Part shown: in pieces, positions 5,472-15,138 of the stretch | Numbering within the stretch: position 1 is the first letter of the stretch | How the letters are laid out: the number at the start of each line of letters is the position of its first letter | Assembly (NCBI GenBank): GCA_007695045.1 | Contig: REEP01000066.1 | Location: 1-32,193, forward strand | Reading direction: 5' to 3' | Source of the DNA: Rhodospirillales bacterium | GTDB taxonomy: Bacteria > Pseudomonadota > Alphaproteobacteria > Rhodospirillales > Defluviicoccaceae | Length of the DNA stretch: 32,193 bases | Program-made: the position numbers and the translations under genes | The notes under the pieces: model-generated | The model's database searches: none | Told to the model about the DNA's origin: nothing | The model's input: only the letters and a program-made list of their open reading frames with translations

Positions 5472-6686
5472 TCAGGCGTTCTCGCCCGGCATGGTCTGCT
5501 TAAGCGCGGCCCAGACCGGTAACCGATCGAGGATCCCAACCCGATCCAGGTAGTCCCGGTCCAGCACCGAGGCAGGAATGTCCTGACCATTGCCGCCCGC
5601 TTCCGGCTGACCGCTGAGGAACTCCGACACATGGACGATGGCGACCGGCCCGACGTTGTCACCGCCGTATCGGCCGGGGCTGTGGTGATAGGCCACCGCC
5701 TCGACGATCGGATCGGTGAAGCCCCACAGCCCGAGCAGGTAGGCACCCACGTCCGCATGTGACGCGCCGAACACCTGTATCTCCGCTTCGGACGCTCCGA
5801 TCGAGTCCCGCTCCATCAGACGGCCAGCGGCGCGAACGCGCTCGGGCCATCGGTCCATCAGCACCAGGCTGCCCACATGGGCCAACACGCCCGCCGCCTC
5901 GGCGTGGGCCACGGTGCGGTCGTCGAGCCCTTCCAGTCGGGCGATCGCGGCCGCCAATTCGCCGATGCCGAGGGATCGGCGGATCAGCAGGCTCAGGCGC
6001 TGCGAGGTCTCGGCATTGCCGCCACGATGCCGAAAAAAGCCCCCCAGCAGCACGAGATTGCGGATGGTCTCCAGGCCCAGAAGCCGCACCGCCTGGGTCA
6101 GAGACTGAACCTTGACCGGCAGGCCGAAGTAGGCGGAGTTGGTGAGCTTGAGGGTTTGCGCCACCATCGCCACGTCGCGCGCCATGACTGCCGCGACCGA
6201 TGCGGCCGAGCTGCCCGGTGCATCCAGTTCGTGGACCAGTTCCGCGAAGTGCGCGGGTGGTGTCGGCAGGGTGTCGACCGCCGCGACCAGGGCGCGCACC
6301 TTGTCGGATGCAATGTGGCGTCGCAGTTCCAGGGTTCGGCCGATGGTCTGGATCAGGATCTGGTGATCGCACGGCTTGGCCAGATACTGGTGCGCCGGCC
6401 CGAGGGTACGAAACACCGCCTCCTTGTCCGAGTAACCGGACAGAATGATGCGCACCGCATCCGGAGAACGCTGCCGCACCCACTTGAGCAGATCGGCACC
6501 GTCCATGCCGGCCATGCGCATGTCCGATACGACCACGTCACACGGTGCCTGTTCCAACGTTGCCATCGCCGCCTCGGAGCCCTCGGCAAACAGCATGTCC
6601 CAGTCCTGGCGCATGCAGCGCAGCGAGCGTGCGAGCCCTTGCTGTATCCGCGCGTCATCATCGACGAACAGGATGCGCGGGCGCAT
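5472..6686 (-). CDS. Response regulator with HDOD output domain
   Basis: This 404-residue cytoplasmic protein starts with a receiver domain (residues 1-125). The acidic pair is in ILFVDDD, the phospho-acceptor is Asp55 in VVSDMRMAGMDG, Ser/Tyr switch residues are in ILSGYSD, and the Lys is in YLAKP. A HDOD domain follows from about 145 to 345 (LPTPPAHFAELV, LKLTNSAYFGLPVKVQSLTQAVRLLG, GLWGFTDPIVEAVAYHHSP). HDOD domains resemble HD phosphohydrolases but usually lack their metal ligands, and they act as signalling scaffolds. Its start overlaps the stop of the upstream kinase by one base (TGATG), which indicates translational coupling and suggests it is a direct target of that kinase. It is the last gene of the three-gene signalling operon. 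Confidence 0.93.
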   Translation of the reverse strand: MRPRILFVDDDARIQQGLARSLRCMRQDWDMLFAEGSEAAMATLEQAPCDVVVSDMRMAGMDGADLLKWVRQRSPDAVRIILSGYSDKEAVFRTLGPAHQYLAKPCDHQILIQTIGRTLELRRHIASDKVRALVAAVDTLPTPPAHFAELVHELDAPGSSAASVAAVMARDVAMVAQTLKLTNSAYFGLPVKVQSLTQAVRLLGLETIRNLVLLGGFFRHRGGNAETSQRLSLLIRRSLGIGELAAAIARLEGLDDRTVAHAEAAGVLAHVGSLVLMDRWPERVRAAGRLMERDSIGASEAEIQVFGASHADVGAYLLGLWGFTDPIVEAVAYHHSPGRYGGDNVGPVAIVHVSEFLSGQPEAGGNGQDIPASVLDRDYLDRVGILDRLPVWAALKQTMPGENA

Positions 6687-9600
6687 CAGGCCGCCTCCTG
6701 CGCCGTCCGACCGATGTTTCTGACGGGCAGGCGGACAATGAAGGTGGTGCCATGGCCGGGCGTGGTCTCGAACGTCAACACGCCCTCGTGCTTCATCACC
6801 ACGATGTCTCGCGCGATGGTCAGGCCCTGGCCGGTGCCCTTGCCGATTTCCTTGGTTGTGAAGAACGGATCGAAGATCCGGCGCTGGATCGCCTCCGGCA
6901 CACCGGTCCCGGTGTCGCTGATGCGCACCTCCACCCAGTCACCGTCTTGCCGGGTGGCGATGGTGATCCGGCCCTTGCTGTCATCATGCGCCGCAGGCTT
7001 GCCGTTCTTGGCGGCAATGGCGTGGGCGGCATTGACGATGAGATTGAGGAACACCTGAGACAGATCCCCCGGCAGGCACGGCACGGGCGGCAGCGTCGGA
7101 TCCAGCGCGCGCTCCACCTCTGCCACATACTTCCATTCATTGCGGGAGACCGTGAGCGTGTTCTCCAGGGTGTGGTTGATGTCCACCAGCACCTTCTCGC
7201 GTGTGCCTGGGTAGGAGAACTCCTTCATCGCGCGGACAATGCGGCTCACGTGTTCGACCCCTTCCAGCGATTGCCGGGCGGCCGACGGCAATTCGCTGGC
7301 CAGGTAATCAAGGTCGGCACTGGCGGCGGCGGCCCGGGCGGTCGCCACCACGGCCTCGAACCGGCCCTCCCGCTCTGCGGCATCCGCGACTTGCTGATGC
7401 GCGGTGATCACCGCCATCAGATCCGTGAGCGACTGCACGATGAAGCTCAGGTTGTCGCCGATGTATTGGATCGGCGTATTGATTTCGTGTGCGATTCCAC
7501 CCGCCAGCTGGCCGATGGCTTCCATCTTGTGGGTCTGCTGCAACTCTCGCTCCAGCGCTTGCCGGCGTTCGGCGTCGCGCACCGCGCGGGTGACGTCCCG
7601 GCGGATCAACGTGCGTCCCCCGCCACGGATGCGGTACTCGTCCACCTCGACGCAGCGGCCGTCGCCGGTCTCGAACGCACTCTGAACCCGGTCCGTCGTG
7701 CGCTCCGACAGTCGCGCCTGGATCCAGGCTTCCGCGGTCACGCCCTCCGGCAGCCGAACGTCGCCGCGTTGCACCAGGGCAGTCATGAGTTCGGAAAAGC
7801 AGGCACCCGGCTTCAGCAGATCCCGCACCGTGCTCATGGCATCGGCGTAATGGCTGTTGAACAGCACCAAGCGGTCGTCGGCATCGTAGATGGCAAAGCC
7901 ATCGGCAATGCTGTCCACCGCGTCCTGCAGCAGTTCGCGAGCTCGGGTGGCCTCCGCCTCCGCTTGCACTTGGGTGGTGATGTTGGCGCCGGTGCCGCGG
8001 TAGCCTTGGAAGCCGCCGTCGGCATCGAACACAGGCACCCCGCTCACCCGGATGTGGGCCACGCTGCCGTCAGCGGCGGTTACCGGATAGACGAAATCCC
8101 GGAACGCCCGGTGCGCGGCAAGGTCAGCCTGGTGTGGCGCCCAGAACGCCTCGTCATCGACGTTGCAAGCGATCTCCCGGCGGGTGCGGCCAATGATATG
8201 CCGAACCGGCCCGCCCTGCGGCGTCCGCTTTCCATCCGGGTCGGAAAACCAAATGAATCGGAGGTCTGGCCCCATCTCATAGAACCAGTCGGAACTGGCC
8301 AGCGCGAAATCCTTGAATCGCTGTTCGCTCTCGCGCAGCCGTGCCTCGAACAGTTTTCGCTCGGTGATGTCCTCCTTGACGGCCACGAAGTGGGTGATGG
8401 CGCCGTCATTGTCGATGATTGGCCCGATCGTCGCGAACTCCCAGAAAAGCTCGCCGTTCTTCTTGCGATTGAGCAGCTCTCCTCGCCAGGTTTCACCCAC
8501 GCTGATGGTGCGCCACAGCGTCACGTAAGTCTCAGGCGTGTTCTCTCCGGATTTGAGGATGCGCGGGTTCTGGCCGACCGCTTCTTCCGCGCTGTAGCCG
8601 GTGAGGGCCACGAAGGCGGCATTGACGAACTGAATGGCACCGGTGGCATCGGTGATCACCACGGTGGCCGGGCTCTGCTCAACCGCGCGGGACAGGATGC
8701 GGAATTGTTTTTCCGCCTCGTTTCGATCGGTCAGGTCCTGGATGGCCCCGACGATCCCGCCGATGGTTCCGTCCGGCTTGAGGAACAACGCCTTGGTCAC
8801 GGTTTCGTGGCGCCGCCTGCCGCACTGTTCGGGGATGACCTGATCGTAGGTGCGCACGCCGCCGCCGCGCAGCAGAGTCAGGTCTTCCGCGCGCTGTTGG
8901 TCAGCGAGTTCGGGCAACAACAGGTCATGGACGGTGTGCCCGATGATGTCTTTCGTCGGCAGACCGGCAAGCCTGGCAAACGCCTGGTTGCAGATCCGGT
9001 AACGACCGTCGAGATCCTTGAAGAACATCGGGATGGGGACGGTATCGATCAGGGTGCGGCTGAACGCCAACTGCTGCTGCAGGTCGATCTGCGCCTGCTT
9101 CAGCACGCTCACGTCCGACAGGGTGCCGATGAAGTGGGTGGCTGTGCCGTTGTCGTCGATCACCGGCGCGATGGTGATCTCGTTCCAGAAGGGGCTGCCG
9201 TCCTTGCGGTAGTTACGGGTGGTCACGGTCACCGGCCGGCCCGAGAGCACGGCGTCGCGCATGGACTCGATCGCCGCGTCATCGGTATCGTCACCCTGCA
9301 GAAACCGGCAGTTCTTCCCCGCCACGTCCGGGAACGCGTAACCGGTCAGGCGCTCGAACGCCGGGTTGGCGTAAAGGATGGGACAGTCCCGATCCACCGG
9401 GCCGGTGATGATAATCCCGGTGTTGGCAGCCTCCATCGCCCGGGTCCGCAGGTGGAGTTCAGCCGCGGCATGGTGCCGCTCGGTCACGTCCTGGATCGTG
9501 CACACGATCAGCGGAGAGCGGGTGCCGTCATCCTCGATCCGCTCTCCCTCGTGATGCACGATGCACTCGTTGCCATCCGGGCGCAGCACCCGGTAATCAA

Positions 9601-10627
9601 TACTGAATGCGCTTCCGCGGTCCGTCGCGCCCCGAAGCGCCGCCGCCACGCGCGCCCGGTCACCGGGATGGACCGCGCCCAGGAGCGCATTCGTACCAGG
9701 CCGCGTCTCCTCAACGGTGAGGCCCAGGATACGCAACGCCTCCGCCGACCACTGGGCACTTCCTGTGATCGCACACACGTCGAAGCTGCCAAGTCGCGCC
9801 ATCGCCTGTGCGCGTGTGAGATGCAAGCGGCTTTGCTGCAAGGCGCTGGCGGTCCGCGCTTGGCTGACGATGGTGCGCAACAGTGTCCGCTGGAACCACA
9901 CCAGCGCCATCGCGGCGACGACCAGGGCCGGCACCAGCAGGAGCGCCGGCACCGCGAGCAAGCCCACCTCGCGCAATCGGGATGCTGTCCCCGTGATCGA
10001 TTGTCCGACGGTCGCTTCGGTCGCCTGGACCAGGTCGGCGAGGGCCTGAATCGCGGCCTGTCCGTCGACGGTCGGCACCGCCGACAGCGGCAAGGGGGCC
10101 AGATCGGTGCGGGCTGCCGCAGCGAGGATGGCCACCGCGATCTCATAGCGCTCCAGGGCATCGCCGATGATGGCCACGGCCTCGGCCTCGGCGAGAGTCA
10201 CGCCGGCGGCGCGATACTGGCGGAGGGCGGCACGTGCGGACCGGAGGCTGGCTTCGGCACGAAGCGCGGCGTCCCGGTCCTGATCCAGTGCCAGTTCGAC
10301 GTAACTATGGATGAGTCCGCCGAAGCCGAGTGCCGATTGCAGCCGATCCAGCGCTTGCGGCTTGCTGGTGCTGATCTCGGCCTGGCTGTACCAGTGCTCG
10401 ACCATGCGGTCGTAGCCGGCAAATGCCACCAACCCGAACCCGAACAGGGCCACCAAGCTCACAACGATCAGGCCGATCGCGAGCCTGGAGCGGCCCCGCA
10501 CATTGCGGATCATGTCGCTATCGGCCGGCATCGCCGCGGGCAAGCCGCTAAGCCCGTGGTGCGCCGCCCCCGCCGCCTTGACGCTCGGGGCGTCGTCCGG
10601 TCCGTCAAGTGCCGCGGTCACCGGCAT
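6686..10627 (-). CDS. Membrane LOV/PAS histidine kinase
   Basis: This is a very large sensor kinase (1313 residues from the ATG at 10627). Two transmembrane segments (about 48-71 and 222-245) flank a mostly helical periplasmic region. Then come PAS1 (about 270-390), a LOV-type PAS (394-512) with GKNCRFLQG and Cys440, PAS3 (517-640), PAS4 (641-760), PAS5 (765-888) and PAS6 (892-1020). A DHp helix with GGIAHEINTP (His1047) and a HATPase domain (NLIVNAAHAI, SDTGTGVPE, GTGQGLTIARDIV) complete it. It has no receiver domain of its own; the two flanking genes supply them. LOV domains bind flavin and sense blue light, but here the usual signalling Gln is Leu503. The start is uncertain: the frame is open to 10882 inside the upstream gene, and other ATGs lie at 10666 and 10513. 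None has a strong ribosome-binding site. 10627 gives a 23-base overlap with the upstream gene. Confidence 0.92.
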   Translation of the reverse strand: MPVTAALDGPDDAPSVKAAGAAHHGLSGLPAAMPADSDMIRNVRGRSRLAIGLIVVSLVALFGFGLVAFAGYDRMVEHWYSQAEISTSKPQALDRLQSALGFGGLIHSYVELALDQDRDAALRAEASLRSARAALRQYRAAGVTLAEAEAVAIIGDALERYEIAVAILAAAARTDLAPLPLSAVPTVDGQAAIQALADLVQATEATVGQSITGTASRLREVGLLAVPALLLVPALVVAAMALVWFQRTLLRTIVSQARTASALQQSRLHLTRAQAMARLGSFDVCAITGSAQWSAEALRILGLTVEETRPGTNALLGAVHPGDRARVAAALRGATDRGSAFSIDYRVLRPDGNECIVHHEGERIEDDGTRSPLIVCTIQDVTERHHAAAELHLRTRAMEAANTGIIITGPVDRDCPILYANPAFERLTGYAFPDVAGKNCRFLQGDDTDDAAIESMRDAVLSGRPVTVTTRNYRKDGSPFWNEITIAPVIDDNGTATHFIGTLSDVSVLKQAQIDLQQQLAFSRTLIDTVPIPMFFKDLDGRYRICNQAFARLAGLPTKDIIGHTVHDLLLPELADQQRAEDLTLLRGGGVRTYDQVIPEQCGRRRHETVTKALFLKPDGTIGGIVGAIQDLTDRNEAEKQFRILSRAVEQSPATVVITDATGAIQFVNAAFVALTGYSAEEAVGQNPRILKSGENTPETYVTLWRTISVGETWRGELLNRKKNGELFWEFATIGPIIDNDGAITHFVAVKEDITERKLFEARLRESEQRFKDFALASSDWFYEMGPDLRFIWFSDPDGKRTPQGGPVRHIIGRTRREIACNVDDEAFWAPHQADLAAHRAFRDFVYPVTAADGSVAHIRVSGVPVFDADGGFQGYRGTGANITTQVQAEAEATRARELLQDAVDSIADGFAIYDADDRLVLFNSHYADAMSTVRDLLKPGACFSELMTALVQRGDVRLPEGVTAEAWIQARLSERTTDRVQSAFETGDGRCVEVDEYRIRGGGRTLIRRDVTRAVRDAERRQALERELQQTHKMEAIGQLAGGIAHEINTPIQYIGDNLSFIVQSLTDLMAVITAHQQVADAAEREGRFEAVVATARAAAASADLDYLASELPSAARQSLEGVEHVSRIVRAMKEFSYPGTREKVLVDINHTLENTLTVSRNEWKYVAEVERALDPTLPPVPCLPGDLSQVFLNLIVNAAHAIAAKNGKPAAHDDSKGRITIATRQDGDWVEVRISDTGTGVPEAIQRRIFDPFFTTKEIGKGTGQGLTIARDIVVMKHEGVLTFETTPGHGTTFIVRLPVRNIGRTAQEAA
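9089..9448 (-). other. LOV photosensor domain within the histidine kinase
   Basis: This segment encodes kinase residues 394-513. It has the flavin-pocket signature of LOV domains: ANPAFERLTGY, GKNCRFLQGDDTDD with the adduct cysteine (codon 9308-9310), a second Arg in SMRDAVLSGR, and the two Asn residues of NYRKDGSPFWNEI. The final strand reads FIGTLSD, where canonical LOV domains have a Gln two residues after Gly; here it is Leu (codon 9119-9121). Confidence 0.85.
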
Positions 10628-12809
10628 GAGCACGAGCCGCGCCGGCCTCGCGGCGGTCAAGGTCATGGGGGGAGCCGTCATCGTGGCGTTCGGCGGCATG
10701 AGCGTCGAACGCGCTCGCGGAACCCGACGATTCGGCGGTGGCTGACGCCCGGCGGTGCTCGGCGATCCAGCCGGGCACCTGCGCCGGCGGCAGTGGCGGA
10801 GTGAACAGATAGCCTTGCGCCTCGCGACATCCCAGCGCCGCGAGCAGGCGTGCCTGCGCCGGCGTTTCCACCCCTTCGGCAATCACTTCGAGCTTGAGCG
10901 AGCGCGCAAGCACCAGGACCGCTTCGACGATCGCGCGGTCTTCGCCGTCGTCGGGGAGATTGCGCACGAAACTGCGGTCAATTTTGAGGCGATGCACGGG
11001 AAGTTGGCGCAAGTAGCGCAGGCTGGAATAGCCGGTCCCGAAGTCGTCGATCGCCAGTCGGATCCCCAGCTCATCAAGCCGGACCAGTTCCGCTATGACG
11101 TCGTCCCCTTCCTGTACCGCCGTGCGTTCCGTAATTTCCAGTTCCAGTGCGTGTGGCGGCAGGCCGGAGCGCGCCAAGGCTTGCCGCACCGTCGCCAACA
11201 ACTTGCCTCCGCCGATCTGCTGTGCGGAGATGTTGACCGCCACCCGGAACTCGCCGAGGCCCTCGTGCTGCCAGCACAGAGTCTGCGCCGCAGCCGTGGC
11301 AAGGGCCCATTCGCCCAACGGGATAATCAGGCCGTTGGCCTCGGCCAGCGGGATGAAGATATCCGGCGGGATCGTTCCCAGGCTGGGATGAGTCCACCGC
11401 ATCAGGGCTTCAAAACCGGCGATCTCCCCGCTCGGCAGGTGGATCAGGGGTTGGTAGGCGAGGGACAGTTGCCCCTGGTCCAGGGCCGAGGCCAGGGCCC
11501 GCTCCAGATCGCGGCGCCGCGCTACGCCGCCATCCTGCCGCTCGTGGTACAGGCAGAAGGTGGTGCGTGGTGTTTCCCGGGCACGTCGGGCCGCCAGCGT
11601 CGCTTCCTGCCAGAGCCGATCCGCTGGTGCGTGCCTTTCCGTGTTAAGGGTGGCGCCAATGCTGGCGATGCAGGGAATTTTGTGTCCGTCGACCGGCACC
11701 GGCGCGGCGAGCACGTCCACCAGTCCGCCCAGGAGCGCGCGCAGCGCGTCCTCGCCGGCCACCGCTGGCAGCAGGATGGCAAACTCGGTGTTTCCGATCC
11801 GGGCGACCTGGTCCGGATGAGAGGTGTTGCGCTTCAAACGCTCGGCCGTTTCCGACAGCACGGCGTCGCCGGCATCATGTCCGAACGCTTCGTTGATCTC
11901 GCCCACCTGTCGCAAGTCGACGATGGCAAGGCCCGTGGCCTGCCCCCGTTCGCCGTCCCGCGCCAACGCATCGAGCAGCCGGCCGCGCATGACCCGGCCA
12001 TTCGCCACTCCCGTCAACGCGTCGTGCGAGCTGTTGCGGTGCAGGGCCTCTTCGGCGCGCCGCTCCGCACTGATGTCACGAACGATGGCTGTGCCGGCCC
12101 GGTCTTCGCGTTCATGGTCGGCCCCCAAAACCAGTTCCACCGGGAAGCGCCGGCCGTCACGGTGGCAGCCTTCGGTCTCAAGGGCAGCAACCTTTCCATC
12201 CGAGGCAGGGACATGGAGCTGTCGCGGATCGAGGTCCGGGATCAGCCGACTGAGGCACTGGCCTGCCAACTCTGTCTGCCCCAGCCCGAACAGCCGTTCC
12301 ACAGCTTGGTTGCACGACACGATGCAGCCGACGCTATCGAGGCCGATTACCGCTTCCGCGAGGGTATCGATCACCAACGAGATATGCCGGCGTTCCGCTT
12401 CCAGCCGGACCAGTTCACGGCGCACCAGGGCGTGACGGCAGTACTCCGCCGCCGCGTCGGAAATCGCGGCCACCAGATTCGGCTGCGCGCATGGCTTGGT
12501 CAAAAACCGGAAGACCTGGCCGTGATTGACCGCGGCCATGGCCGTCTGCAGGTCGCCCTGCCCGGTCAGCATGATGCGCATGATCTCCGGCGCGCGCGTG
12601 CGGACCTGGTTGAGGAAAGCGACCCCGTCCATGCCCGGCATCTGCATGTCGCTGACGACCACGGCGAAGGGGCCCTGGCGTTCCAGAAGGTCGAGACCTT
12701 CCGGGCCGCTGGCGGCGGTGACGATGTCGAAGTGATGACGCAGGCCGCGGTGAAAACCCGCCAGCACGTGGGGTTCGTCGTCCACGACCAGAACCCTGGT
12801 GCGCGTCAT
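10605..12809 (-). CDS. Response regulator with PAS, degenerate GGDEF and EAL domains
   Basis: This 734-residue protein is predicted to hydrolyse c-di-GMP. The receiver domain (1-125) has DD at 10-11 and phospho-acceptor Asp54 (VVSDMQMPGMDG). A PAS domain spans about 138-255. A GGDEF domain (about 258-420) is degenerate: the signature GGDEF reads GNTEF (339-343) and the metal-binding DLD reads DLR, so no cyclase activity is expected. The EAL domain (about 433-685) keeps FEALMRW (467-469 = EAL), NIS, ELEITER, DDFGTGYSSL, LKIDRSFV and EVIAEGVET, so it looks active. The start has a good ribosome-binding site (GGAAGGA). The 50-residue C-terminal tail is Ala/Arg-rich and overlaps the kinase start. 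As first gene of the operon with the LOV kinase and HDOD regulator, it is a likely phosphorylation target. Confidence 0.93.
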   Translation of the reverse strand: MTRTRVLVVDDEPHVLAGFHRGLRHHFDIVTAASGPEGLDLLERQGPFAVVVSDMQMPGMDGVAFLNQVRTRAPEIMRIMLTGQGDLQTAMAAVNHGQVFRFLTKPCAQPNLVAAISDAAAEYCRHALVRRELVRLEAERRHISLVIDTLAEAVIGLDSVGCIVSCNQAVERLFGLGQTELAGQCLSRLIPDLDPRQLHVPASDGKVAALETEGCHRDGRRFPVELVLGADHEREDRAGTAIVRDISAERRAEEALHRNSSHDALTGVANGRVMRGRLLDALARDGERGQATGLAIVDLRQVGEINEAFGHDAGDAVLSETAERLKRNTSHPDQVARIGNTEFAILLPAVAGEDALRALLGGLVDVLAAPVPVDGHKIPCIASIGATLNTERHAPADRLWQEATLAARRARETPRTTFCLYHERQDGGVARRRDLERALASALDQGQLSLAYQPLIHLPSGEIAGFEALMRWTHPSLGTIPPDIFIPLAEANGLIIPLGEWALATAAAQTLCWQHEGLGEFRVAVNISAQQIGGGKLLATVRQALARSGLPPHALELEITERTAVQEGDDVIAELVRLDELGIRLAIDDFGTGYSSLRYLRQLPVHRLKIDRSFVRNLPDDGEDRAIVEAVLVLARSLKLEVIAEGVETPAQARLLAALGCREAQGYLFTPPLPPAQVPGWIAEHRRASATAESSGSASAFDAHAAERHDDGSPHDLDRREAGAARAHAGDRGT

Positions 12810-13065: not shown

Positions 13066-15138
13066 ATGGCCGATTCCGTCGAGTCCGGCACTGTGGCGCC
13101 GACAGCAACCGATGCCGCCGCCGTGGCGGATCACATGACCGACGCGGCCTCCGGACAGGCGCCCGTTCTGCACCAACGGTTCGAGATCGATGCCAGGACC
13201 CCGCTACCGGCATTCGATAACGGCACGTCCCGGGCGTATGCCGTCACCGATCGTCTCCAGGCCGGTCGTGCCCTGTTCGCCTTGGTGTGCTCTCCGGTGC
13301 TGCCGTTCCGGGCCCATGTGCTGGAGCGCCTGAATGGCAGTTTGCCGTCCGGTTTGCTGCCTCTGGTGGATCACGGCCTGGTGTCGTGGGCTGGCGAACG
13401 GGTGCCCGTCCTCGTCTACGTCCGGCCCGAAGGCGGCGCGGTCGGCGCCGTCTACGGCCGGGACGGACGCAGCATCGCAGAGAACGATATTATCCGCCGG
13501 ATCGCCACCCCAATCGTCCGCGCGTTGCGGGGGCTGGATTCAAGCAGCGTCAGCCACCGCAACATTCGCCTCGGCAACCTGTACTTCCTGGATGAAGGCC
13601 GGTCCGAGTTGGTATTGGGCGATTGTGTGGCAGGGCCTCCCGGGATGGCCCAGCCGATAGCGTCCGAGCCTGTGGAACGGGCGATCGCCTCGCCTGCCGG
13701 TCGCGGCGAAGGCGGCAGCGCCGATGACGTGTACGCCCTCGGCGTGGCCCTGGTGTCCCTGTTACTGGGATACGATCCCATCGCGGACACCGACGATGAT
13801 GACATCATCATGGCCAAGCTGGAGCGCGGCAGCTACAGCGTGTTATGCGAACGTCAGCGCGTGCCGCTCGCCATGCTCGAACCGCTCCGCGGCATGCTTT
13901 GCGACGAACCGTTGGCGCGCTGGAGTCTCGACGAGTTGCAGGCGTGGATCTCCGGCGGTCGTACCAGCCTGCCGCGCCGCACTGCCGGTGCCCGGCCCGC
14001 GGCGCCATTCGCGTTCGGCCGCAAGGAGCATTTTTCTTTCAGGACCTTGGCGCGAGCGTTCTCCAAGGACGTGGTCCGCGCGGGTGGGGTGATACGCGCC
14101 GGTCATCTGGAGTTGTGGCTACGCCAGCGGGTGCGCGATGAGGACCTGGCCAACCGGGTCGCCGATCAGGTTCACGTCGCCACCAAGGCGGCCCGCGGCA
14201 ATGCCAACGCCGAACAGGTGCTGGTCTCCCGGGTCGCGATGCTGCTCGATCCCCGCGCACCGATCTGCTTCCAGGGCTTGAACGTGATGCCGGACGGCAT
14301 TGGCCCGCTTCTCGCCCAGCGCTGGCTCGGCGACGGCGATGCGCAGACGCCGGCGGCTCTGCTGCAATCGGATTTGCCGGGATTCTGGTTGTGGGCTCAG
14401 GGCAAGGATGGGACGAGCCTGATCGCGGCTCACCGGCAGATTCCGCGACTGCATTTCCTTATCGGCAAGCAGACGATTGGCTACGGGCTGGAGCGCTGCC
14501 TGTATGAGACCAACCCGGGCATTCCATGCCAAAGCCCGCTGGTGCGGGGAAGCTATGTCCTGACCCTGGAAAGATTGTTGATCGCTCTGGACCGGGCAGC
14601 CGGCACGGCCGGCGAGGCAGATCTGCCGATGGATCGGCATATCGCGGCTTTCATCGCGTCGCGTAGCGAGGGTGGTACGGAAGCGCTGCTGGCGGCCATC
14701 GGCGACGCTTCCCGGGCCAAAGTGGTGTTGGGCACCTTGGGGCTGCTGGCGCAGGGTCAGCGCGCTTGCGGTGGGCTTGCGGTTCCCAGGCTGTCGGCAT
14801 GGATGGCGCGCCTGCTGCCACCGGTGATCGACGAGTTCCATCATCGCCGGACCCGCCGCGAGGTGGAGAAGCGCATCAAGGCGGTGGCGCCCAACGGTTT
14901 GCTGACCGAACTCAGCGATATCGTGAACGATCAGGACCGGCGCATGTCGGACATGAGCGGATTCATGGCGGCCTCCGCTGCGTTCGAAGCGGCTTCGACG
15001 CGTATCCGCACGCTGGAGTCCGATGATCCCCGGCAAATCGCTCGGATCCAGGAGGCCGGCCGATCGGCCGCTGCCACCGCGTCGATTCTGGCCTCGGCGG
15101 TGGCGGTCTGCCTGATCCTGATGAGCCACCTGCTGTAA
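13066..15138 (+). CDS. Tail-anchored protein with kinase-like (pseudokinase) domain
   Basis: The 690-residue protein has an N-terminal segment with a Ser/Thr protein kinase fold (about residues 55-300). The catalytic-loop equivalent is SHRNIRLGNLYF: the HRD Asp is replaced by Asn166, while the metal-binding Asn171 is kept. LGDC supplies a DFG-like Asp186, and SADDVYALGVALVSLLLGYDP matches the kinase region after the activation loop. The beta-3 lysine (VAIK) is not apparent; the matching stretch reads ALFALVC. It is therefore probably a pseudokinase. The C-terminal 370 residues are unrecognised. They end in one hydrophobic segment (about 668-690, ILASAVAVCLILMSHLL), which predicts a tail anchor with the bulk of the protein in the cytoplasm. 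The next gene starts 4 bases after its stop. It is transcribed divergently from the c-di-GMP operon. Confidence 0.8.
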   Translation: MADSVESGTVAPTATDAAAVADHMTDAASGQAPVLHQRFEIDARTPLPAFDNGTSRAYAVTDRLQAGRALFALVCSPVLPFRAHVLERLNGSLPSGLLPLVDHGLVSWAGERVPVLVYVRPEGGAVGAVYGRDGRSIAENDIIRRIATPIVRALRGLDSSSVSHRNIRLGNLYFLDEGRSELVLGDCVAGPPGMAQPIASEPVERAIASPAGRGEGGSADDVYALGVALVSLLLGYDPIADTDDDDIIMAKLERGSYSVLCERQRVPLAMLEPLRGMLCDEPLARWSLDELQAWISGGRTSLPRRTAGARPAAPFAFGRKEHFSFRTLARAFSKDVVRAGGVIRAGHLELWLRQRVRDEDLANRVADQVHVATKAARGNANAEQVLVSRVAMLLDPRAPICFQGLNVMPDGIGPLLAQRWLGDGDAQTPAALLQSDLPGFWLWAQGKDGTSLIAAHRQIPRLHFLIGKQTIGYGLERCLYETNPGIPCQSPLVRGSYVLTLERLLIALDRAAGTAGEADLPMDRHIAAFIASRSEGGTEALLAAIGDASRAKVVLGTLGLLAQGQRACGGLAVPRLSAWMARLLPPVIDEFHHRRTRREVEKRIKAVAPNGLLTELSDIVNDQDRRMSDMSGFMAASAAFEAASTRIRTLESDDPRQIARIQEAGRSAAATASILASAVAVCLILMSHLL

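Follow-up and report, generated by a model that had tools for sequence, protein, structure and literature searches.

A LOV domain with leucine in place of the active-site glutamine in a multi-PAS sensor histidine kinase of a Rhodospirillales bacterium

In LOV photoreceptors, an active-site glutamine normally passes the light signal on. A contig of a Rhodospirillales bacterium of the family Defluviicoccaceae (GenBank assembly GCA_007695045.1, REEP01000066.1; positions 1 to 32,193, the 32,193-nucleotide stretch called the window here) encodes a sensor histidine kinase whose LOV domain carries a leucine at this position, raising the question of whether the domain can still serve as a light input. 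A first-pass annotation of the window had left two answers standing: a natural LOV domain that signals without the glutamine flip, or a redox- or flavin-sensing module that is no longer light-driven. Our analysis favors the former. It is probably a natural glutamine-deficient LOV (LOV-ΔQ) domain through which a membrane sensor histidine kinase receives blue light, photoactive but slow to revert and weaker in amplitude; we infer the flavin binding, photochemistry, kinetics, and phosphotransfer partners of the window protein.

The LOV domain is encoded at 9089-9448 on the minus strand and comprises 120 residues (479-598 of the longest frame of the kinase), reading RTRAMEAANTGIIITGPV...GKNCRFLQG...NYRKDGSPFWNEI...FIGTLSDVSVLKQAQ. 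The plus-strand reading of the same interval is unrelated and contains nothing LOV-like; the first-pass annotation had placed the interval correctly, leaving the strand unstated. The codon of the adduct-forming cysteine in GKNCRFLQG is TGC at 9308-9310, and this residue, Cys47 of the domain, corresponds to C450 of AsLOV2. The asparagines of NYRKDG (9212-9214, Asn79) and FWNEI (9182-9184, Asn89) correspond to AsLOV2 N482 and N492. At the position of AsLOV2 Q513 and YtvA Q123, the window has the leucine codon CTG (9119-9121, Leu110). The domain has a predicted PAS/LOV fold with the adduct cysteine in a GxNCRFLQ motif, and it lacks the active-site glutamine of strand Iβ that completes the canonical set. 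The published filter for glutamine-deficient LOV receptors asks for at least eight of nine YtvA residues (G59, N61, C62, R63, F64, L65, Q66, N94, and N104) and a residue other than glutamine at Q123 (Dietler et al. 2022, PMC9098866). All nine residues are present in the window LOV (row L053 of the census described below), and the residue at YtvA Q123 is leucine. Two further positions deserve mention: the position of AsLOV2 N414 holds glycine, as in YtvA, so that an asparagine important in AsLOV2 is missing, and the position of AsLOV2 V416 (YtvA V28) holds isoleucine.

The leucine column was assigned by aligning the window LOV with AsLOV2, YtvA, and a congeneric protein, the first two in sequences verified against PDB entries. 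In a phmmer search of the PDB, 161 distinct chain sequences match the domain at E ≤ 0.001. The best of these is 7r5n (1.8e-32), in which FIGVQKD lies over FIGTLSD of the window. Glutamine stands opposite the leucine in all five PDB alignments examined (FIGVQKD, FVGIQSD, and similar), each of them free of gaps from the cysteine to this column. A misaligned column, with a glutamine from elsewhere set against the flavin, was rejected because no gap separates the cysteine from the leucine in the alignments with these five chains, AsLOV2, or the congeneric protein; the YtvA alignment has a two-residue gap before the strand that carries the column. A chance resemblance to PAS domains was likewise ruled out by the PDB matches, the structural alignment, and the nine filter residues. 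The solved LOV domains closest in sequence are those of Meiothermus ruber Mrub_1259 (9vf7 and 9vf8) and Pseudomonas fluorescens PF5-LOV (7r5n), which, unlike the window LOV, have the glutamine.

A predicted structure gives the same picture. The AlphaFold2 model of the domain, built from 13 alignment rows, some of which are not LOV sequences, has a mean predicted local distance difference test score (pLDDT) of 92.4. LOV structures account for all 50 of the matches listed by Foldseek and for 47 of the 50 listed by VIA-align, and 9vf7 heads both lists. The other three VIA-align matches are PAS domains of EAG channels (Z 18.5-19.1), so the fold match alone is no proof of a flavin site. Against the LOV domain of Chloroflexus aggregans, model residue 114 falls on residue 152 in 6rhg, and residue 115 falls on residue 153 in 6rhf. 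These alignments are given by their end points only; read without gaps, they set Cys47 on C85 and Leu110 on Q148, the two residues varied in these entries. Several of the fold matches are engineered C. aggregans variants of Q148 (to V, H, E, N, K, R, and D; none to leucine), which indicates that the LOV fold tolerates other residues in this column. The first-pass observation of a retained cysteine with leucine in the glutamine column thus stands on both sequence and structural alignment: the leucine occupies the column of AsLOV2 Q513 and C. aggregans Q148, and neither comparison places a glutamine there.

Redox-sensing PAS domains of the NifL and MmoS type rely on the redox chemistry of flavin adenine dinucleotide (FAD) and have no adduct cysteine. 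Such domains bear on a rival explanation (ALTERNATIVES), under which the LOV domain still binds flavin and acts mainly as a sensor of redox state or flavin occupancy, the loss of glutamine marking lost light signaling. Against the NCBIfam NifL model, the kinase as a whole scores 256.9 bits, above the cut-off of 242.45, over three stretches, the best of which lies in PAS4, the fourth PAS domain of the chain (8345-8707, minus strand; Pfam scan). The best PDB match of PAS4 is 3ewk ("Sensor protein"; 5.4e-35 over two stretches), which we take to be the tandem PAS region of MmoS, an FAD redox sensor; the 9vf7 LOV domain (1.6e-19) and the NifL PAS domain 2gj3 (5.5e-18) also match. The LOV domain itself matches the NifL model weakly, at 62.5 bits. 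It is far closer to the YtvA blue-light family, with which it scores best among NCBIfam models (137.8 bits; the cut-off of that full-length model is 250), and the likeness to NifL and MmoS is strongest in PAS4. The LOV domain does not fit the NifL/MmoS redox type, since its cysteine is kept, and a redox-only role would give this cysteine, which persists with all of the LOV filter residues, no reason to do so. LOV receptors have been suggested to descend from redox-active flavoproteins, a point in favor of this rival, whereas the leucine variants reported in the same source retain light signaling (PMC9098866, as far as its available text goes). We regard a redox or flavin-occupancy role for the LOV domain as unlikely; nothing positive supports the light-independent redox module that the first-pass annotation had offered as its second alternative. 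A redox input to the kinase is nonetheless plausible from the domain matches; PAS4 is a likelier route for it than the LOV domain, and a single kinase chain may sense both light and redox state.

Receptors of this kind have been described. About 350 natural glutamine-deficient LOV receptors, mostly with leucine or isoleucine, were reported by Dietler et al. (PMC9098866; the account here follows the available portion of that paper), and the window protein may itself be among them. The window LOV shares with that class all nine filter residues, the absence of glutamine, and a replacement of the predominant type. In the histidine kinase YF1, the Q123L variant binds flavin and forms the adduct; its recovery is 10-fold slower, and its light response keeps about half the amplitude (PMC9098866). 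YF1 Q123L resembles the window protein in that a LOV domain with leucine at this site, and glycine at the N414 position, feeds a histidine kinase. Because the window LOV also has isoleucine at the V28/V416 position, it resembles the YF1 V28I/Q123L double variant, which was tested as well; V28I slows YF1 recovery about 10-fold (PMC9098866). The architectures differ. YF1 is an engineered fusion of the YtvA LOV domain and the FixL kinase core, with one LOV domain beside the kinase, whereas in the window protein four PAS domains lie between the LOV domain and the kinase, and PAS1 and a hydrophobic N-terminal region precede it.

Other variants in the same source behave comparably. AsLOV2 Q513L recovers about 22-fold more slowly, its initial change in circular dichroism (CD) is about half, and its light-induced structural changes, seen at about 1 Å resolution, are closely similar (PMC9098866). 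An earlier study noted there found much-reduced CD changes for Q513L. The first-pass statement that glutamine-to-leucine variants of plant LOV2 domains lose much of the structural signal is incomplete: YF1 Q123L and AsLOV2 Q513L keep about half of the amplitude. NmPAL Q347L, although impaired overall, exceeds the wild-type response in one reporter assay, and a natural LOV-GGDEF protein of M. loti with methionine at this site mediates blue-light repression in cells (PMC9098866). This natural protein, the one tested in cells, differs from the window protein, a six-PAS histidine kinase with leucine. AsLOV2 Q513, V416, and N414 are reported to be among the positions with the strongest effect on recovery (PMC10751770, in its available part). 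The light response of YF1 Q123L, the nine retained residues, and the lack of significant relaxation described below favor a natural LOV domain that signals without the glutamine flip, the better supported of the two first-pass alternatives.

On this basis, we propose the following mechanism. Blue light would generate a flavin-cysteine adduct, the usual reaction of LOV domains. In a domain that lacks the glutamine, protonation of flavin N5 would be relayed to the β sheet less efficiently, possibly via a transient water molecule as for AsLOV2 Q513L; such a water has been proposed as the relay in the absence of glutamine (PMC9098866, available text). From there, the signal would travel along the helical linker and across four more PAS domains before reaching the kinase, and the kinase is predicted to control how far two neighboring response regulators, one with an EAL domain and one with an HDOD domain, are phosphorylated. 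The predicted properties are a slightly blue-shifted absorption, a reduced amplitude, and an adduct decay several-fold to tens-fold slower than that of the glutamine form.

A comparison with the nearest relative addresses when the glutamine was lost. The 100 related genomes searched include one of the same genus (G001), and this genome encodes a homologue of 1344 amino acids (locus L048, 5168-9202, minus strand) in the same gene order as in the window. Alignment shows the same chain of domains, and the kinase gene likewise stands between genes for a response regulator-PAS-GGDEF-EAL protein and a response regulator-HDOD protein. The two LOV domains are 74% identical. The G001 domain has glutamine at the site, valine at the 416 position, and NCRLLQG, as compared to leucine, isoleucine, and NCRFLQG in the window; it has therefore lost one of the nine diagnostic residues while keeping the glutamine. 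The codons around the column are GTG CAG ACC (VQT) in G001 and ACC CTG TCG (TLS) in the window, the glutamine and leucine codons being one base apart. In a tree of 35 LOV rows, 30 of which have glutamine, the window pairs with G001 at 100/100. Matches without an aligned Asn-Cys pair were left out of this tree, as were nine loci by name: eight that duplicate the window, G001, L008, L009, or L012, and L049, which has proline at the cysteine position. One of the 32 inner branches is starred and the deeper forks are mostly weak; none of the five rows without glutamine pairs with another. For the genomes compared here, inheritance of the leucine across a large orthologous group was rejected because the one other congeneric genome among them has glutamine and the tree pairs the window with it. 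By parsimony, these data indicate that the leucine is the derived state and a recent change.

To place this change among other LOV domains, a census was taken with a 20-base search for N-C-[RS]-[FL]-[FL]-Q-G, a pattern that misses LOV domains with other motifs. Three overlapping genome sets were covered, and matches occurred in 10 of 317 genomes from the order, 28 of 385 from the class, and 54 of 397 from the phylum. The 117 loci found yield 116 distinct peptides, of which 17 fail a LOV profile at E < 1e-10 and one (L055) fails the eight-of-nine filter, leaving 98; the profile was built from the 35 tree rows, the window among them, and several genomes contribute more than one row. The glutamine column holds glutamine in 87 of the 98, leucine in six, isoleucine in three, and cysteine and threonine in one each. 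Eleven domains, about one in nine, are thus without glutamine, the window being one of the leucine rows, and leucine is the commonest replacement. By eye, five of these domains precede GGDEF-like sequence (L080, L102, L150, L164, and L165), three lie in kinases (L061, L085, and L128, the last by its HRVKNNLQV motif), and two precede further PAS-like sequence (L135 and L137). A LOV or LOV-like domain among other PAS-like segments was also seen by eye in L068 (glutamine), L085 (isoleucine), and L055 (degenerate). The first-pass suggestion that the placement of the LOV domain in a PAS chain makes the signal route unusual does not hold, as these three are similarly arranged.

An association of glutamine loss with isoleucine or leucine at the 416 position (8 of 11 domains without glutamine versus 33 of 87 with it; Fisher p 0.048) was not counted as evidence, because the grouping is post hoc, the rows share ancestry (L164 and L165 being almost identical), and the counts are uncorrected for phylogeny. 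The searches also returned LOV-like PAS domains that vary at the cysteine. The window genome itself encodes one of 143 codons (L002; G000 C9:6048-6341) with SPRMLQG in place of NCRFLQG, which is cysteine-less and keeps the glutamine (ALQHE); G001 and G006 have matches comparable to it in frame length and identity. In Planococcus and Planomicrobium, LOV-like PAS domains (L039 and L041-L044) carry glycine where the adduct cysteine would be (NGxF[ML]HG) and keep the FWNEITI core.

A recent change of this kind could also mark the onset of decay, in which case selection would have ceased to maintain LOV signaling in this species and the leucine would be an early sign of drift. Selection on the domain was therefore compared between the two congeners. 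The pairwise ratio of nonsynonymous to synonymous substitution rates (dN/dS; NG86) is 0.18 for the LOV domain, within the range of the other parts of the protein (0.16-0.35). None of the relative-rate comparisons with eight outgroups is significant (χ² from 0.07 to 2.27, with 8 to 15 informative sites each). The sequences thus give no significant sign of relaxed constraint on the window LOV, although, with counts this small, there may have been a mild relaxation.

Several observations weigh against the reading of the domain as a working blue-light input, and some of them favor decay. In five of the eight relative-rate comparisons the window has the higher count of changes (7:4, 8:3, 5:3, 7:4, and 8:7, versus 4:6, 4:7, and 3:8), and the end branch of the window in the tree is longer than that of G001 (0.18 versus 0.10). 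The pairwise dN/dS averages both branches, with one genome on each side. Both residues flanking the leucine have changed as well, so that the signaling strand is altered beyond the glutamine-to-leucine substitution, and threonine at the 512 position is rare, occurring in one of the 87 census rows with glutamine. The leucine occurs in one of the two congeneric genomes, and the window genome is a 138-contig draft of one individual. In addition, no match to BLUF, PHY, or the photosynthetic reaction center was found in the window genome or its congener at E ≤ 0.001, so that neither genome gives a separate hint of light-dependent life. The degenerate L055, from the same order, has leucine and has lost both asparagines, as would a plausible later stage of decay. 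Yet the frame is intact, all nine diagnostic residues are kept even though the glutamine-bearing congener has lost one, and the LOV dN/dS is as low as that of the rest of the protein. The leucine can also be kept: L164 and L165 (G989 and G740), two species of another genus, share a leucine LOV domain ahead of GGDEF-like sequence. We consider decay improbable on this evidence. A sequencing or assembly error in the leucine codon is very improbable; the single draft and the one-base difference between CTG and the CAG of the congener would allow it, but the codons on either side also differ while the frame stays open, and leucine is the commonest replacement in other genomes. Both decay and error are less likely than a natural LOV-ΔQ input domain.

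A further possibility, which we hold only tentatively and at low probability, is that the glutamine loss was adaptive, tuning a faster-reverting receptor into a slow-reverting, more light-sensitive integrator that kept its task in a cyclic di-GMP (c-di-GMP) operon. The leucine would then act together with the isoleucine at the V416/V28 position, and the congeneric protein, with glutamine and valine, would preserve the earlier state. The kind of receptor has already been described by Dietler et al., and the window LOV opens no new class of system; what is new is the natural occurrence of two close relatives of which one has the glutamine and the other lacks it. The tests in the available part of PMC9098866 concern laboratory substitutions and one natural protein, whereas here congeners differ naturally at the glutamine codon by one base. 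Comparing the two would reveal how natural loss of the glutamine retunes a receptor, and whether LOV-ΔQ domains are kept for slow recovery. Judged by title and abstract opening, PMC9098866 is the only paper from 2022 on in our search that concerns LOV glutamine loss, and none of the papers searched combines a LOV domain, HDOD, a histidine kinase, and blue light.

The gene that carries the LOV domain occupies an open frame of 1398 codons (6686-10882, minus strand), the longest reading of which begins at TTG; it was aligned with the 1344-residue congeneric protein. Translation probably begins at one of three ATGs, whose first bases on the minus strand are 10627, 10531, and 10513. The first of these (10625-10627) is residue 86 of the longest frame, and a start there would overlap the upstream gene, whose end is at 10605. 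The first-pass numbering of the leucine as Leu503 fits this start; in the longest frame it is residue 588. A Pfam scan made piece by piece, together with the LOV assignment, gives the order N-terminal region, PAS1, LOV, PAS3, PAS4, PAS5, PAS6, a histidine-containing region, and the ATPase domain, all on the minus strand, so that, as first described, the LOV domain is the second of the six PAS domains in the chain. The N-terminal region (9767-10531) gave no match in the Pfam scan. It contains two hydrophobic stretches flanking a segment of about 150 residues; by eye these look like membrane helices, from which we infer membrane anchoring. PAS1 (PAS_3; 9458-9790, E 3.5e-14) precedes the LOV domain, and PAS3 (PAS_4; 8708-9085, E 1.5e-17) immediately follows it. 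Beyond PAS4 lie PAS5 (7943-8344), a weak PAS_4 match (E 1.5e-5; 25.6 bits versus a cut-off of 23.1), and PAS6 (PAS_7; 7553-7957, E 6.5e-17).

The kinase core (6698-7570) consists of a putative phospho-acceptor histidine in GGIAHEINTPIQYIGDN and a HATPase_c domain (E 1.5e-24). HisKA has no Pfam match in the kinase at E ≤ 0.01, and the histidine was assigned by motif alone, AHEINTP aligning with AHEINNP of LvrB. With HATPase_c and a conserved histidine in the region before it, the protein is classed from its sequence as a histidine kinase.

Genes for two response regulators flank the kinase on the same strand. Downstream, a response regulator with an HDOD output domain (5472-6686) has a start codon that shares one base with the kinase stop codon (TGATG); its G001 counterpart, of 404 amino acids, has the same one-base overlap. 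Upstream, a response regulator-PAS-GGDEF-EAL protein (10605-12809) has a degenerate GGDEF motif (GNTEF) and keeps EAL and DDFGTGYSS, so its activity is likely c-di-GMP breakdown as a phosphodiesterase; by eye, the G001 counterpart has GGAEF. Both regulators are predicted to take phosphate from the kinase, because of the gene neighborhood and its conservation.

Two minor observations concern other genes. In G006, of the same family, a PHY match and reaction-center matches lie on one contig, and a short LOV domain with glutamine is present. In the window, positions 13066-15138 of the plus strand encode a 690-residue protein whose one Pfam match, to Pkinase, is weak (E 9.2e-5) and falls short of the curated cut-off, and a frame of 696 residues occupies the corresponding place in the congener.

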